From: a virus
DNA length: 24,646 nt
Reading direction: 5' to 3' (one strand)
IMG/VR virus record: IMGVR_UViG_3300042549_002773
Span: 1 to 24,646 of that record
The notes below the pieces were generated by a model. That model saw only the letters and a program-made list of their open reading frames with translations. It was not told the DNA's origin and made no database searches. The translations under genes were made by a program, and so were the position numbers. How positions within the stretch are numbered: position 1 is the first letter of the stretch; every line of letters begins with the position of its first letter. Positions 4,326 to 18,130 of the stretch are shown piece after piece.

Positions 4326-4628
4326 AATATCACTCCATATTTAGCAAGGAAAGAATTAATCTCAGGTATCTCCCCATCTCTCTCAATCATCCTCGCGCAT
4401 TTGAGGTAAAGATCCATCATCACAAAATCGTTACCAATACGCTCAGAACCATCCCAAGCAACGTAATTAAACTCAGATGGATACCACGTAGCATATTGAG
4501 AAATAACAGCTTCTAGAGCCTCCTGCTTCGTCTTACAATTCTTCAGAAGTTTATACGCAGCTTTCTCTCCGTACTTAACTCCAGCAAGTTCACATGGTTT
4601 GTTTTTGAATGTTGAATGAATATTTCAT
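4322..4628 (-). pseudogene. frameshifted small gene, about 101 aa if one base is removed
   Basis: A good SD (AAAGGAAACTTA) leads to the ATG at 4628, but that frame stops after 12 codons (MKYSFNIQKQTM). The next frame is open from there to a TGA at 4322 that overlaps the ATG of the Lar-like gene, and encodes KPCELAGVKYGEKAAYK and onward to FLAKYGVIL. Removing one A from the run of five near 4603-4607 joins them as MKYSFNIQNKPCELAG. The second frame has no ATG, GTG or TTG near its beginning. Either the gene is broken, the run is miscounted, or a +1 shift occurs. No family recognised. Confidence 0.65.
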
Positions 4629-4641
4629 TAAGTTTCCTTTA
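4623..4641 (-). repeat. 19-bp direct repeat, copy B
   Basis: Identical to 3546-3564. It covers the end of the gene read in the second frame of the methyltransferase and the start of the frameshifted gene. The upstream genes at both copies end in the same residues (KET stop). Confidence 0.7.
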
Positions 4642-5329
4642 TGTTAGTTGATAATTGATTTGTGTAATTCAATAAATGCTGCTGCTGCCACAACTGGAAC
4701 TTGTCCATTTCCAAGGGCTTTAAGTCTGTCCATCCTTCGGGCCACCCCATTAAGTACTCGAAATTCTCGGGAGTTGGCTTCCCAAACACTTCCACGTAAT
4801 TCCTGCAACACTGGTGTTTTTGCATACTTGGTGCGGAAAAATTCGCCATAGTAGTCGGTGTATGCAAATAACCAATATCTTGTCCTTTCATGGTCTGCAC
4901 CCAAGTCTTTCGCTGAAAGTTTAATGTATTTACTGTTATATCCGTCTTCCAACAAATCCCGCTGTGCTTGTAGTATGGCTTTCTCGGATACATTTTCTGC
5001 AAAGACTGCATGAGGGTTAACCTCTCCAATAATCCTTCGCATCTCGTACCATAAGTCCTTTCCGGCAATGTTTCTACCTCTTGCTGCACTAGAGAATGCT
5101 TGGCAGGGGAATCCTCCAGAAACCAAGTCCACAGTTCCTTTCCATGGTTTTCCGTCAAAAGTACATACGTCATCCCATATCGGGAATGCACCAATGGCTC
5201 GATCGTTCTGCCTTTGCACAAGTACATGCTGGCAGTATTCATCTCTTTCAACAGCGCAAACTGTGTTGATTCCGAGGAGATGGCTTGCGAGTAGTCCTCC
5301 ACCAGCGCCCGTGAATAAAGATAGCTCAT
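4628..5329 (-). CDS. full-length overlapping ORF in a second frame of the methyltransferase gene, 233 aa
   Basis: The ATG at 5329 lies four bases after the methyltransferase GTG, so both could share one AAAGGA SD. The frame stays open for 233 codons, and its stop forms TAATG with the next start, as real genes here do. Its sequence looks like the methyltransferase-associated phage proteins I recall: SRYGMTYVLLTE with LEDSPAKHS near the N-terminus (residues 49-79), then LHTPTTMANFSAPSM (156-169), then EYLMGWPEGWTDLKPLE at 191-207. Some similarity could be a passive echo of conservation in the other frame. Function unknown; a helper of the methyltransferase is a guess. Confidence 0.5.
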   Translation of the reverse strand: MSYLYSRALVEDYSQAISSESTQFALLKEMNTASMYLCKGRTIEPLVHSRYGMTYVLLTENHGKELWTWFLEDSPAKHSLVQQEVETLPERTYGTRCEGLLERLTLMQSLQKMYPRKPYYKHSGICWKTDITVNTLNFQRKTWVQTMKGQDIGYLHTPTTMANFSAPSMQKHQCCRNYVEVFGKPTPENFEYLMGWPEGWTDLKPLEMDKFQLWQQQHLLNYTNQLSTNIKET

Positions 5330-5333
5330 TCAC
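4644..5333 (-). CDS. C5-cytosine DNA methyltransferase
   Basis: 229 aa. Motif I is LSLFTGAGGG (SAM binding, residues 4-13). Motif IV is GGFPCQAFSS with the catalytic Cys77. Motif VI is FAENVS (111-116), motif VIII is RTRYWLFA (150-157), and motif X is RLKALGNGQVPVVAAAAF (203-220). It transfers a methyl group from SAM to C5 of cytosine, probably shielding phage DNA from host restriction. It is short because the target-recognition region is small. I choose the GTG at 5333, which follows AAAGGA by six bases and gives the usual MNELSLFTG start; a TTG at 5372 has no such support. The same DNA is open in a second frame throughout. Confidence 0.88.
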   Translation of the reverse strand: MNELSLFTGAGGGLLASHLLGINTVCAVERDEYCQHVLVQRQNDRAIGAFPIWDDVCTFDGKPWKGTVDLVSGGFPCQAFSSAARGRNIAGKDLWYEMRRIIGEVNPHAVFAENVSEKAILQAQRDLLEDGYNSKYIKLSAKDLGADHERTRYWLFAYTDYYGEFFRTKYAKTPVLQELRGSVWEANSREFRVLNGVARRMDRLKALGNGQVPVVAAAAFIELHKSIIN

Positions 5334-5497
5334 AAACTTCCTTTCGGAAGGTAAACATCGTAACCTAAACAATTGATAATCATTGTGTGTTTCCCTTTGT
5401 AAAGTAAAATATTACCGTTGCTTTGTTCATTTGATGAATAACCCATTTTGATTCGAGCTTCAACGACAACTTGCTGTTCATTTGTGAGATATTTCAT
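5330..5497 (-). CDS. small hypothetical protein, 55 aa
   Basis: The ATG at 5497 follows AAAGGAG by four bases. The reading runs MKYLTNEQQVVVEARIKMG to YDVYLPKGSL, and its TGA overlaps the GTG of the methyltransferase (GTGA), indicating coupling. Spacing and SD make this a real gene although it is short. No family recognised. Confidence 0.65.
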   Translation of the reverse strand: MKYLTNEQQVVVEARIKMGYSSNEQSNGNILLYKGKHTMIINCLGYDVYLPKGSL

Positions 5498-10320: not shown

Positions 10321-10397
10321 TGGTGCAACTGGAGAAATTCGAATTCCCGACCTACGGAGTAGAAATCCGCTGCTCTATCCAACTGAGCTACAGTCGC
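10321..10397 (-). tRNA. tRNA-Arg (UCU anticodon)
   Basis: A 7-bp acceptor stem GCGACTG/CAGTTGC, a D-arm with TAGCTCAGTTGGATAGAGC, an anticodon stem GCGGA/TCCGT with loop TTTCTAC giving UCU, a T-arm around GTTCGAAT-like GGAATTCGAATTTCT, and an encoded CCA end. It reads AGA codons, which AT-rich phages use far more than their hosts. Seven bases separate it from the upstream tRNA, so both are processed from one transcript. Confidence 0.92.
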
Positions 10398-10404
10398 ATT
10401 ATTC

Positions 10405-10479
10405 TGGTATGACTTCTGTGGATCGAACACAGGACCAAGAAATTATGAGTTTCCTGCTCTACCACTGAGCTAAAGTCAT
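10405..10479 (-). tRNA. tRNA with CAU anticodon (elongator Met, or Ile2 decoding AUA)
   Basis: Acceptor ATGACTT/AAGTCAT, D-arm TAGCTCAGTGGTAGAGCA, loop CTCATAA with anticodon CAU, T-arm CTGTGTTCGATCCACAG, encoded CCA. It is not an initiator: 1:72 is A-U and the anticodon stem lacks the three G-C pairs. The stretch around the anticodon (GAGCAGG...CTCATAA...CTTGGTC) resembles bacterial tRNA-Ile2, in which lysidine at C34 makes the tRNA read AUA. Confidence 0.88.
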
Positions 10480-15014: not shown

Positions 15015-16091
15015 CTAGTCTTGTATATCTACTTCATAGTTTAAAAGTGCAATTATGGCACGTTCGCTAATTATATTCTTCCATTGCTCAGCAAGGTTTT
15101 TAGCACAAGCCTCTTTATATTTTTTATAAGTATGGAATGCATCCTCTGGATTACTAAACACTCCTAGGTAGTTACTTTTACCTTTAAAGTTGCAACTAGC
15201 TTGCCATTTATTGAGTCGTTCATGATAAGTTACTCCAACAGGCCAGTCCCCTCTGTGGTTATGTCTGTCAGTTAGAAATGAATTTATCTCTCTTGGTAAG
15301 AATACACAGGCTTTCTCAGAGTATTCCCTATTTCCTTTTATGAGTAAATCTTTATCTAAATGCCAATCATCTTGCACTACTTGATTATCAAACCATTCGG
15401 AGAAATTTTTGATATTCAACCACTCAGCTTGTACTGAGCACCCTTCATAAGTTAATTTCTCCATAGAAGATTGTGGATTATAGACTCGTTTTAACATTCC
15501 ACACCACGATTTGTACATTTTTGAATTAATATCCACATTAAAATCGCCAATCACTCCAACACCAGCAACAGTAGGTAAGTATTTGTTGTGTACGTTGCCA
15601 GACTTAATATTACCTATATTAGTCTTTACAGAGTAGTTAACAGGGTCATTGAATTCAATAATAATATTGGCCGCATTGTTATATTCCTTAACAACCATTA
15701 ATGAACCTTGATTATTTGTAAATATATCACCTACTTTAATAGAAGGAGTTAGTTGTCTAGAGTCCTCTTCTCGCATTAGTGTACCATTTTTTAACACGGA
15801 AGATTGACAGACCCTAGTGTAACCATCCTCCCATTCGAAAGTAATTCTTGAAGTTGTATCAATGTCTTTAATGACTACTGTATTTCCAACCTTATCTTTG
15901 AAAGAATCTCCTATAAATAAAGATGGAAGTTTAACAGATTTATCTCTTATGTATTGAGTTTTTGTCTTCCTGATGAATCCTCTATGATCAAATTTTACAG
16001 TGATATCTAAACAATGATTGGCTTCTATAATTGTAAACCAGTGTCCTGCCTTGTTTTGAAAACGCTCCCCAATAAGTGGTAGACTACTCAT
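15015..16091 (-). CDS. homing-endonuclease-like protein with N-terminal repeats and AP2-like C-terminus
   Basis: 358 aa. Residues 5-170 hold three copies of a module of about 55 aa, each with a Gly-Asp/Glu start, a KAG/KVG/NQG turn and a strand such as TVKFDHRG, ITFEWEDGY or IIIEFNDP; this SH3-like unit occurs in phage HNH/AP2 proteins. The rest has MYKSWCGMLKRVYNP, EWLNIKNFSEWF, HLDKDLLIKGN, CVFLPREIN and the AP2-like GVTYHERLNKWQASCNFKG with YLGVFSNPEDAF. Its position between helicase and polymerase is typical of homing genes. AAAAAGGAGATAAG precedes the ATG. Confidence 0.75.
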   Translation of the reverse strand: MSSLPLIGERFQNKAGHWFTIIEANHCLDITVKFDHRGFIRKTKTQYIRDKSVKLPSLFIGDSFKDKVGNTVVIKDIDTTSRITFEWEDGYTRVCQSSVLKNGTLMREEDSRQLTPSIKVGDIFTNNQGSLMVVKEYNNAANIIIEFNDPVNYSVKTNIGNIKSGNVHNKYLPTVAGVGVIGDFNVDINSKMYKSWCGMLKRVYNPQSSMEKLTYEGCSVQAEWLNIKNFSEWFDNQVVQDDWHLDKDLLIKGNREYSEKACVFLPREINSFLTDRHNHRGDWPVGVTYHERLNKWQASCNFKGKSNYLGVFSNPEDAFHTYKKYKEACAKNLAEQWKNIISERAIIALLNYEVDIQD

Positions 16092-16187: not shown

Positions 16188-17924
16188 TTAGAACTCTGTT
16201 ACACCATTTTCCTCCATCCAATCGTCCAAGTCATAAAGTGTATGCTTCTGGTTGTCGTAGTAATACTTACCTGCAATACCTGTCTTTCCAGTCCAGCGAA
16301 TCTTAGTTGCTTTCATTATAGTGGTGTTTCTTTCCACTTCATCAGTTGCTTCCTTGTTTCTACTAAAAAGTAAATTACACGCAGCACTTTTATACAAACC
16401 ACTATTTCCCATTAGGTCTTCTTCATGTAGATCAGCACCAGCAGAACCTGCTTTCTGACCACCACCAGTTTTTCTGGTGTGACATACGTTCAAGAATGTA
16501 ACCATGTGAGATTTTACCATACCTTTCTGCCAAGACATAAAGTTCTCTTGTTCGTCCAATGGCAATGCTGAGATGACATCGTGTATGGGATCGAGCACAA
16601 TAACTTTACAACCACAAGAGATAATCAAATTCTCAATAGCTGATTGAATATTTTCAACATCACCATCACGATCATCCACTAAATAGAAACGAGGATTACC
16701 ATCTGCATCATTAAACAAATCATGCTCTTTTTTCTTCACTTCTTCACTGTCTAACAACGCCATAGCACTGTCCATATCAAGCAGTTCAATCTTCTTAGAT
16801 ATGTGTCGTGACAGCAGCTTAATACCATACTGTCCACTAGTACTTTCTAACGTAACAACGCCTACTTTATGTGGGCTATTGAATAACATGTAGTAAAGTA
16901 TCTCGTCGGTTATTGTACTTTTTCCAGTTCCTGATGCACTACCTAAGTTAACGATACGCCCTAACGGAATTCCACCAGCCATCATTTCCTGTAACTTATG
17001 CATGAATGGAGGTAATGGAATTTTCTCTGTGTTCATTTCTGAACGCATTTGAGAAGAAATCTGATTACTTGCCACTACACCAACAGGTACATACAATTCA
17101 GCGTTATAGAAGTCCTGAATGAACTCTTTCTGCTTACCTTTCTCAAGATACTCATTATGATCCTTATATCGAAGTTTCATAATCTTCACTTTACTTTTTG
17201 GCAATACCTTGATAGCTTCAGCTTGAGCATCCTGCCCAGCTTTATCTGAATCAAACGCGCAGATGACGAAATCAAATGTGTTGAAAAATTCATATTGAGC
17301 AGCGATTTGTTTCTTTGATTGTGCTCCAGTAGTAGGACTAACTACAGCAATCTCAAAGTCAGAACCTTTGCTAGTATTGTATTCCTTCATGATCTGGTAA
17401 GCTGACAAAGCACAAAGTTCTCCCTCTGCGAGAATTACATACTTACCACCACGATTGAACCTAAATTGACCAAACAACTGGCAATCTGCACCTGTGCGAC
17501 CAATACTACGGAAATCTTTTGGTACTGACCTAATCTTATATCCTGTCAGTTGACCGTCTTGTGTACATGGATAGAATTGTTCGTTTACTTCACCGTCATC
17601 ATCGAACTTATGACGAACAAGAAAATACTTAGTGGTTTCATCTGATAATCCACGGAACTCATTACATTCTGTTGTAGCGTCTTTTTTAATCTCTTGTGCT
17701 ACCTCTGGATCAATTACTGGTTTACTTGGTTTAACTGGTGTTTCATCTTGCATAACTTCCTTTCGTTTTCTTTTCGGTTTCTTTTCGTTTAGTAGTTCCT
17801 TGTATTCTTCGGATAGTGTAGCGTGAGTACATGACCAGCAGTAGGTACTACCGTCATCATAAACAGCTTTCGCGTCAGAACTACCACACTCTTCACAATT
17901 TTCGTGTTTTATAAACTGAGCAAT
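16188..17924 (-). CDS. primase-helicase, T7 gp4-like, apparent AUU start
   Basis: 578 aa, close to T7 gp4 (566). The zinc finger HENCEECGSSDAKAV...YCWSC (C10, C13, C29, C32) is followed by the primase region (RSIGRTGADCQLFG, ILAEGELCALSAY, CAFDSDKAGQDAQ of the Toprim fold) and a RecA-type helicase (Walker A LGSASGTGKST near 328-337, Walker B VIVLDPIHDV, then HTRKTGGGQ). It unwinds DNA 5'-3' and makes primers. The only ATG near the front (17753) excludes the zinc finger. The frame upstream is open back to a stop and has no ATG, GTG or TTG, but an ATT at 17924 follows AAAGGAGG by five bases. Confidence 0.9.
   Translation of the reverse strand: MAQFIKHENCEECGSSDAKAVYDDGSTYCWSCTHATLSEEYKELLNEKKPKRKRKEVMQDETPVKPSKPVIDPEVAQEIKKDATTECNEFRGLSDETTKYFLVRHKFDDDGEVNEQFYPCTQDGQLTGYKIRSVPKDFRSIGRTGADCQLFGQFRFNRGGKYVILAEGELCALSAYQIMKEYNTSKGSDFEIAVVSPTTGAQSKKQIAAQYEFFNTFDFVICAFDSDKAGQDAQAEAIKVLPKSKVKIMKLRYKDHNEYLEKGKQKEFIQDFYNAELYVPVGVVASNQISSQMRSEMNTEKIPLPPFMHKLQEMMAGGIPLGRIVNLGSASGTGKSTITDEILYYMLFNSPHKVGVVTLESTSGQYGIKLLSRHISKKIELLDMDSAMALLDSEEVKKKEHDLFNDADGNPRFYLVDDRDGDVENIQSAIENLIISCGCKVIVLDPIHDVISALPLDEQENFMSWQKGMVKSHMVTFLNVCHTRKTGGGQKAGSAGADLHEEDLMGNSGLYKSAACNLLFSRNKEATDEVERNTTIMKATKIRWTGKTGIAGKYYYDNQKHTLYDLDDWMEENGVTEF
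17754..17766 (-). promoter_or_regulatory. internal ribosome binding site for a zinc-finger-less helicase
   Basis: CGAAAGGAAGTT lies directly before the in-frame ATG at 17753. Starting here would give a 521-aa helicase without the zinc finger, equivalent to T7 gp4B. Confidence 0.55.
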
Positions 17925-17929
17925 AATAA

Positions 17930-17937
17930 CCTCCTTT
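17930..17937 (-). promoter_or_regulatory. strong SD deciding the primase-helicase AUU start
   Basis: AAAGGAGG then TTATT then ATT (17924). It matches the SD and spacing of the endonuclease VII-like AUU start at 4057. It overlaps the stop of the 64-aa gene. Confidence 0.65.
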
Positions 17938-18130
17938 AATCAATCACCCACTCCTGATAATTATCATCAAACCTAGCTCCTTTTATTGTACTAGGAGGAT
18001 CACAACTTGTAATCACAATTCTATCATCGTTATCAAGGTCGATACCATGAGAAGTTAAGAACAGTTTCTTTCCTGTTCTATGACCATGTCGGTCTGTTTC
18101 ATCGAACCAACCTGTGATTAATAGAATCAT
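17936..18130 (-). CDS. small hypothetical protein, 64 aa
   Basis: ATG at 18130 with GAGGAATAATT upstream. The N-terminus MILLITGWFDETDRHGHRTG is followed by a mixed beta region (IVITSCDPPST). Its stop lies within the leader of the primase-helicase, so the two are probably coupled. No family recognised. Confidence 0.65.
   Translation of the reverse strand: MILLITGWFDETDRHGHRTGKKLFLTSHGIDLDNDDRIVITSCDPPSTIKGARFDDNYQEWVID

Follow-up and report, generated by a model that had tools for sequence, protein, structure and literature searches.

Introduction

The long form of the T7 gene 4 protein, gp4A, starts at AUG. Known bacterial genes with AUU or AUA starts amount to a handful, and work in E. coli has established that AUU starts are sensitive to IF3. 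The short T7 form, gp4B, is initiated at codon 64 and has no zinc finger; gp4A and gp4B are equimolar (PMC9198812). IF3 represses near-cognate starts such as AUU and AUA (PMC5472188), and in Staphylococcus aureus such starts reduce initiation and are accompanied by extended Shine-Dalgarno (SD) sequences (PMC13009471). In the literature that we searched, with most subscription journals outside its reach, AUU or AUA starts in phages were not found.

The gene described here varies two kinds already known, near-cognate starts as in infC and the 4A/4B pair of T7. It lies in a stretch of viral DNA of 24,646 nucleotides (IMG/VR record IMGVR_UViG_3300042549_002773), called the window throughout. The original prediction was that its primase-helicase starts at AUU, which restores the zinc finger, and that an internal AUG gives a short form like gp4B. 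Comparison with relatives makes it very probable that there are two nested starts and that AUU, or AUA in some relatives, limits the zinc-finger-bearing form relative to the helicase-only form.

The Primase-Helicase Frame

The frame is on the minus strand and is open from 17939 to the stop at 16188, with a TGA (17942-17940) just upstream. Its first ATG, GTG, or TTG is the ATG at 17753, from which a protein of 521 amino acids would be made. The cysteines all lie upstream of 17753, so this product is without the zinc finger, as had been claimed. The reading-frame check also agrees with the claim that the frame upstream of 17753 is open and free of ATG, GTG, and TTG, and that it gives 578 amino acids from 17924 (16188-17924, minus strand).

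The predicted long form is of the T7 gp4 type. Residues 3-573 match phrog_239 (E=3.2e-168), and the match of a family profile to T7 gp4 spans residues 10-540, zinc finger included. The cysteines (17829-17897) are spaced C10-x2-C13-x15-C29-x2-C32 in the context FIKHENCEECGSSD...YCWSC, which aligns with FLYHIPCDNCGSSD...FCYVC of T7 gp4, bearing out the T7-like context described earlier. A Toprim_2 domain follows at residues 164-260 (17145-17435; PF13155, E=2.3e-9), and a RecA/KaiC-type helicase domain at residues 310-484 (16473-16997; PF06745, E=1.2e-7), the latter also recognized by alignment with the T7 gp4 helicase. By Pfam, PHROG, and the profile, a zinc-binding domain, a Toprim-type RNA polymerase domain, and a RecA/DnaB-type helicase domain are thus combined in one chain, as in the bifunctional T7 enzyme.

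The best candidate for the start of the long form is the ATT at 17924-17922. The SD, AAAGGAGG, was found where it had been reported, at 17937-17930, and the ATT follows it by 5 nt; the duplex energy with the anti-SD is -12.3 kcal/mol. A second in-frame ATT (17927-17925) is an alternative start, but it is 2 nt from the SD and off the site at which the starts of relatives align. The mRNA around the AUU is mildly structured (-11.0 kcal/mol vs. a mean of -6.2 at other starts). An upstream ORF of 64 amino acids (17936-18130, minus strand) ends in a TAA (17938-17936) that overlaps the SD, which makes translational coupling possible. Among the genes of the window, an SD followed by AUH in a sense-coding frame, with no usual start nearby, is found in the primase only. 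Because of this, and because relatives start at the same codon position, chance is a poor account of the AUU. That the zinc-finger form starts at AUU 17924 is strongly supported by the comparison with relatives.

Start Codons of the Relatives

Relatives of the primase were taken from IMG/VR and a phage collection, and 55 non-redundant members of the clade were counted. At the homologous site the start is ATG in 27, TTG in 17, GTG in 3, ATT in 4, and ATA in 4. The codon aligned with ATT 17924 is ATA in L002, ATT in L003 and L018, TTG in Limnohabitans phage DC31, and GTG in Curvibacter phage P26059A. In the closest relatives the aligned start is always followed by A-x-F-[IVL]-x-H-x-x-C. Aligning related phages had been proposed as a check; when this was done, the near-cognate codon recurred at the homologous site with the SD kept there, and the relatives' starts fell at this codon and not at an ordinary start further upstream. 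The near-cognate genes therefore have no canonical start upstream of the conserved N-terminus, an SD at the proper distance, and a start site homologous to those of their relatives. On the protein tree of the clade the near-cognate state requires five changes, at least four of them being forced by supported branches, with gains and losses indistinguishable. This recurrence of AUU or AUA at one spot suggests that the long form may be deliberately kept scarce. L002 is 95% identical to the window overall, but its zinc finger is divergent and its upstream gene is a different one. Directly past the zinc finger the two evidently share a recombination breakpoint, by which the 5' module, start codon included, was swapped.

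That the ordinary start was destroyed by a sequencing or assembly error can hardly be entertained. The window is a metagenome contig, but the same class of codon occupies the site in seven lineages of the clade, in roughly ten contigs that belong to a second family, and in one isolate genome (both described below); independent contigs and an isolate thus refute the idea.

The AUU could also be a weak start that is passively tolerated, changes from AUG or UUG to AUU or AUA being nearly neutral, with the SD compensating and no selected role in dosage. We give this reading a minor but real share of the probability. AUG is retained in half of the clade, so the gene does not require a weak start; low GC favors ATT and ATA; and the SDs at near-cognate starts are strong (mean -10.0 vs. 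about -8 kcal/mol at canonical starts of the clade; one-sided p=0.02, uncorrected for kinship). However, the DNA polymerase gene downstream on the same contigs starts with AUG in 18 of 18 cases, which makes the weakness of the start specific to the primase; non-ATG starts number 28 of 55 in the primase vs. 0 of 18 in the polymerase (Fisher p=4e-5). A further polymerase scan gave ATG in 10 of 10, on contigs that partly overlap the 18. Passive tolerance also sits poorly with the independent recurrences, which fall in primases, and with the second family, which has maintained AUU through large synonymous divergence even though a single mutation would turn it into AUG.

Selection on the Zinc-Finger Segment

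If the zinc-finger frame were a relic and the helicase without it the sole product, 17753 would be the true start; it is indeed the only canonical one. The reading is very improbable, since among AUU/AUA relatives dN/dS in the segment is about 0.01-0.09, all four cysteines are kept, and so is the SD at the near-cognate site. In the pair L003/L018, dN is 0.008 and dS 0.67 (13 synonymous codons and 1 nonsynonymous), and in L070/L094 they are 0.007 and 0.28 (8 and 1). In the more divergent pair of the window and L002 the values are 0.18 and 2.1 (8 synonymous codons and 7 nonsynonymous). Judged by these substitutions, the zinc-finger segment is evidently translated and under strong purifying selection.

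A translated zinc finger might still be reached by a programmed frameshift, either from the upstream ORF or from an out-of-frame UUG that overlaps the AUU. The upstream ORF does end within the open primase frame in the window, L003, L018, L094, L112, and phage QDWS535, and AUUG holds an out-of-frame UUG in the window, L003, and L070. But in L002, L070, L072, L090, L096, and L259 the open part of the primase frame is free of any overlapping upstream ORF, which makes a fusion impossible there; the AUA members have no out-of-frame start at that place; and the near-cognate codon is throughout where the aligned N-termini begin. Both routes, fusion by frameshift and initiation at the UUG, are thus ruled out by the relatives, and we regard a frameshift as about as improbable as a relic. 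Initiation at the AUU itself is preferred.

The Internal Start

The predicted short form of 521 amino acids (16188-17753, minus strand) has its own SD, AAAGGAAG, at 17763-17756 (-5.6 kcal/mol), as had been noticed. An internal start past the zinc finger is kept in 55 of 55 clade members, as ATG in 51, TTG in 3, and GTG in 1; where the ATG is lost, the codon is still capable of starting (GTG in L019; TTG in L068, L072, and L112). It falls in the linker, 51-67 residues past the conserved Phe and about 25 past the last Cys. A conserved in-frame start with an SD is therefore present between the zinc finger and the RNA polymerase domain. This geometry matches the position of T7 gp4B and, with the conservation of the start, argues for the 4B-like short form of the original prediction.

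An SD of -5.3 kcal/mol or stronger precedes the internal start in 94.5% of the clade, compared with 5.7% of 687 other in-gene Met codons. The mean energy is -5.69, vs. -4.85 under synonymous codon shuffling. Selection at the codon level on this SD appears modest because Lys and Glu abound in the upstream peptide, and shuffled sequences already come near the observed energy.

Near-Cognate Starts in Other Phage Primases

IMG/VR was scanned for GGAG with an unrestricted codon behind it, at a set distance from the zinc finger; further scans, anchored on AGGA or restricted to ATH or ATW, added members. Among the matches listed in the GGAG and AGGA scans, genuine ORFs without an in-frame ATG, GTG, or TTG before the zinc finger had ATT or ATA at codon -3 from the Phe in every case; the few exceptions among the matches listed in the GGAG scan were all frames of 19 codons or fewer. 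ATT and ATA together make up 4.7% of the codons in the window genes, and so chance fails to explain their presence at the site. In L090 and L100 a TTG abuts the SD, and ATA is preferred as the start but is not certain. Several candidates were dropped because their starts are not near-cognate: L091 and L092 (ATT, then ATG), L097 and L108 (GTG), L099 (an ATG two codons up), L101, L102, L104, L106, L110, and L111 (an upstream GTG or ATG), and L105 (a GTG abutting the SD, ambiguous). The AUU/AUA pattern was also sought in bacterial genomes, where the matches were all spurious short frames.

One isolate carries the pattern. Alcaligenes phage vB_Af_QDWS535 (GenBank OK172329.1) reads TAAGGAGGTAAGA-ATA-GCTAACTTT, and its upstream frame holds no canonical codon. 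In the region of L242 601-661, the deposited primase CDS begins within the zinc finger, at an ATG 20 codons downstream of the ATA N-terminus.

The ATW scan also gave a second family, about ten contigs with stand-alone primases of 230 amino acids that start CTAAGGATTATC-ATT-AGTAAATTT; the nearest classified isolates are MEP401/402 of the Zobellviridae. In an unbiased sample of 52 non-redundant starts, ATG accounts for 39, ATT for 9, TTG for 2, and GTG for 2, and those without a canonical start all have ATT. The AUU persists even where synonymous differences reach 22 of the 44 zinc-finger codons, close to saturation of such sites. L272 (ATG) and L273 (ATT) have nearly the same ORF; past the start, 18 codons differ synonymously and 3 nonsynonymously. 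Their leaders are different, the ATG following CTAGGGAATTTC and the ATT CTAAGGATTATC, as if a 5' start/leader module had been swapped. Since stand-alone primases without a fused helicase also use AUU, the 4A/4B link and its ratio cannot be the whole reason for the weak start. Being unable to make a helicase-only form, they fit a broader reading in which the primase itself is kept scarce. More tentatively, unrelated phage lineages may have converged on AUU or AUA for the zinc-finger product, whether it is fused or stands alone, because selection favored a throttle on lagging-strand priming that IF3 gates.

In L098 the stand-alone primase and a DnaB-like helicase gene both start at ATT. The helicase (3291, minus strand) reads AAAGGAGTTAACT-ATT-AACTATGAG and matches PHROG 19 from residue 2; gene callers would start it 28 codons later. 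It is the sole convincing unselected case of AUU or AUA in some 1.65 Mb of retrieved DNA, from loci chosen for the primase.

Other Features of the Window and Its Relatives

In the comparison of L002 3001-3110 with window 17815-17924 the zinc fingers differ, and past about residue 33 of the primase the two sequences are almost the same. An HNH homing-type endonuclease gene (15015-16091, minus strand; phrog_953, E=2.3e-61) lies between the primase-helicase and the DNA polymerase, and in Curvibacter phage P26059A HNH genes flank the primase on both sides. The primase of KIL4 (KU130129.1, L007) belongs to a gene that is annotated in the KIL phages as a join of two pieces, which suggests an intron in the primase of these distant relatives.

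Two phage tRNAs, with anticodons UCU (Arg) and CAU (called Met), are encoded at 10321-10479 (minus strand). A phage-encoded initiator tRNA was considered and rejected: in the tRNA-CAU, A1 pairs with U72, and the anticodon stem includes A-U pairs. It is presumably closer to tRNA-Ile2, which carries lysidine and reads AUA, than to elongator Met.

Two long same-strand frames (4628-5329 and 4644-5372, minus strand) overlap almost fully. One encodes a C5 cytosine methyltransferase (PF00145, E=1.3e-23); in the other, a terminal MGWPEGWTDL segment matches small PHROG families (phrog_35493, 1.1e-9) and has a weak match to a methyltransferase family. The pair may represent dual coding or a shifted domain.

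Proposed Mechanism and Its Meaning

In the mechanism we propose, ribosomes would initiate the priming-competent protein of 578 amino acids inefficiently at AUU 17924 with fMet-tRNA, helped by the near-perfect SD and probably also by ribosomes that terminate on the upstream ORF. The stop of such an ORF lies 13-20 nt before the primase start in several cases, the window included, and termination-reinitiation may therefore help. Like the AUU and AUA starts of S. aureus (PMC13009471), the near-cognate starts of the clade carry somewhat stronger SDs than the canonical ones. The 521-residue helicase form without the zinc finger would be initiated at the internal AUG 17753, and the weak AUU would leave the primase-competent subunit scarce relative to it. 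We infer that AUU works poorly in this host, that both proteins are produced, that selection acts on the ratio between them, and that IF3 disfavors initiation at the AUU.

A stronger role for IF3, in which AUU or AUA is an IF3-responsive switch of primase translation during infection, as in infC and sigR, seems unlikely, a little more so than passive tolerance. AUU, AUA, and GUC starts are repressed by IF3 in bacteria (PMC5472188; PMC13009471), and overexpression of IF3 inhibits re-initiation and M13 propagation (PMC2268962). Sister phages, however, carry UUG or GUG at the site, weak canonical codons with a different response to IF3.

With nested starts of this kind, phage tuning of the primase-to-helicase ratio, an old question with T7 gp4A and gp4B, becomes testable, and the sister lineages with AUG, UUG, and GUG offer natural codon swaps with which to probe the benefit of a weak start. 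Gene callers limited to ATG, GTG, and TTG delete the zinc finger, a systematic annotation error of which OK172329.1 is an example, and such phages therefore appear to be without a primase.

Comparison with Known Systems

T7 gene 4 has the same domain order as the window gene and a homologous sequence, zinc finger included, and an internal AUG with an SD about 25 residues past the last Cys. It differs in the start of the long form, which would be AUU in the window and is AUA, UUG, GUG, or AUG in relatives. The viruses differ also, the nearest isolates here being Pakpunavirus-like myoviruses and not T7-like podoviruses.

Like infC, the window gene has an AUU with a strong SD, against which IF3 is expected to discriminate (PMC5472188). 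However, the product of infC is IF3 itself, which results in autoregulation, whereas the phage product is a primase, so any effect of IF3 would be one-way. The ccpN (AUA) and cvfC1 (AUU) genes of S. aureus and B. subtilis similarly have conserved near-cognate starts, an extended SD, and lowered initiation (PMC13009471), and in Streptomyces sigR a near-cognate GUC start sets a dosage ratio (PMC5472188). Unlike these cellular regulators, the gene described here encodes a phage replication enzyme in which AUG, UUG, GUG, AUU, and AUA are swapped at one site among close relatives.
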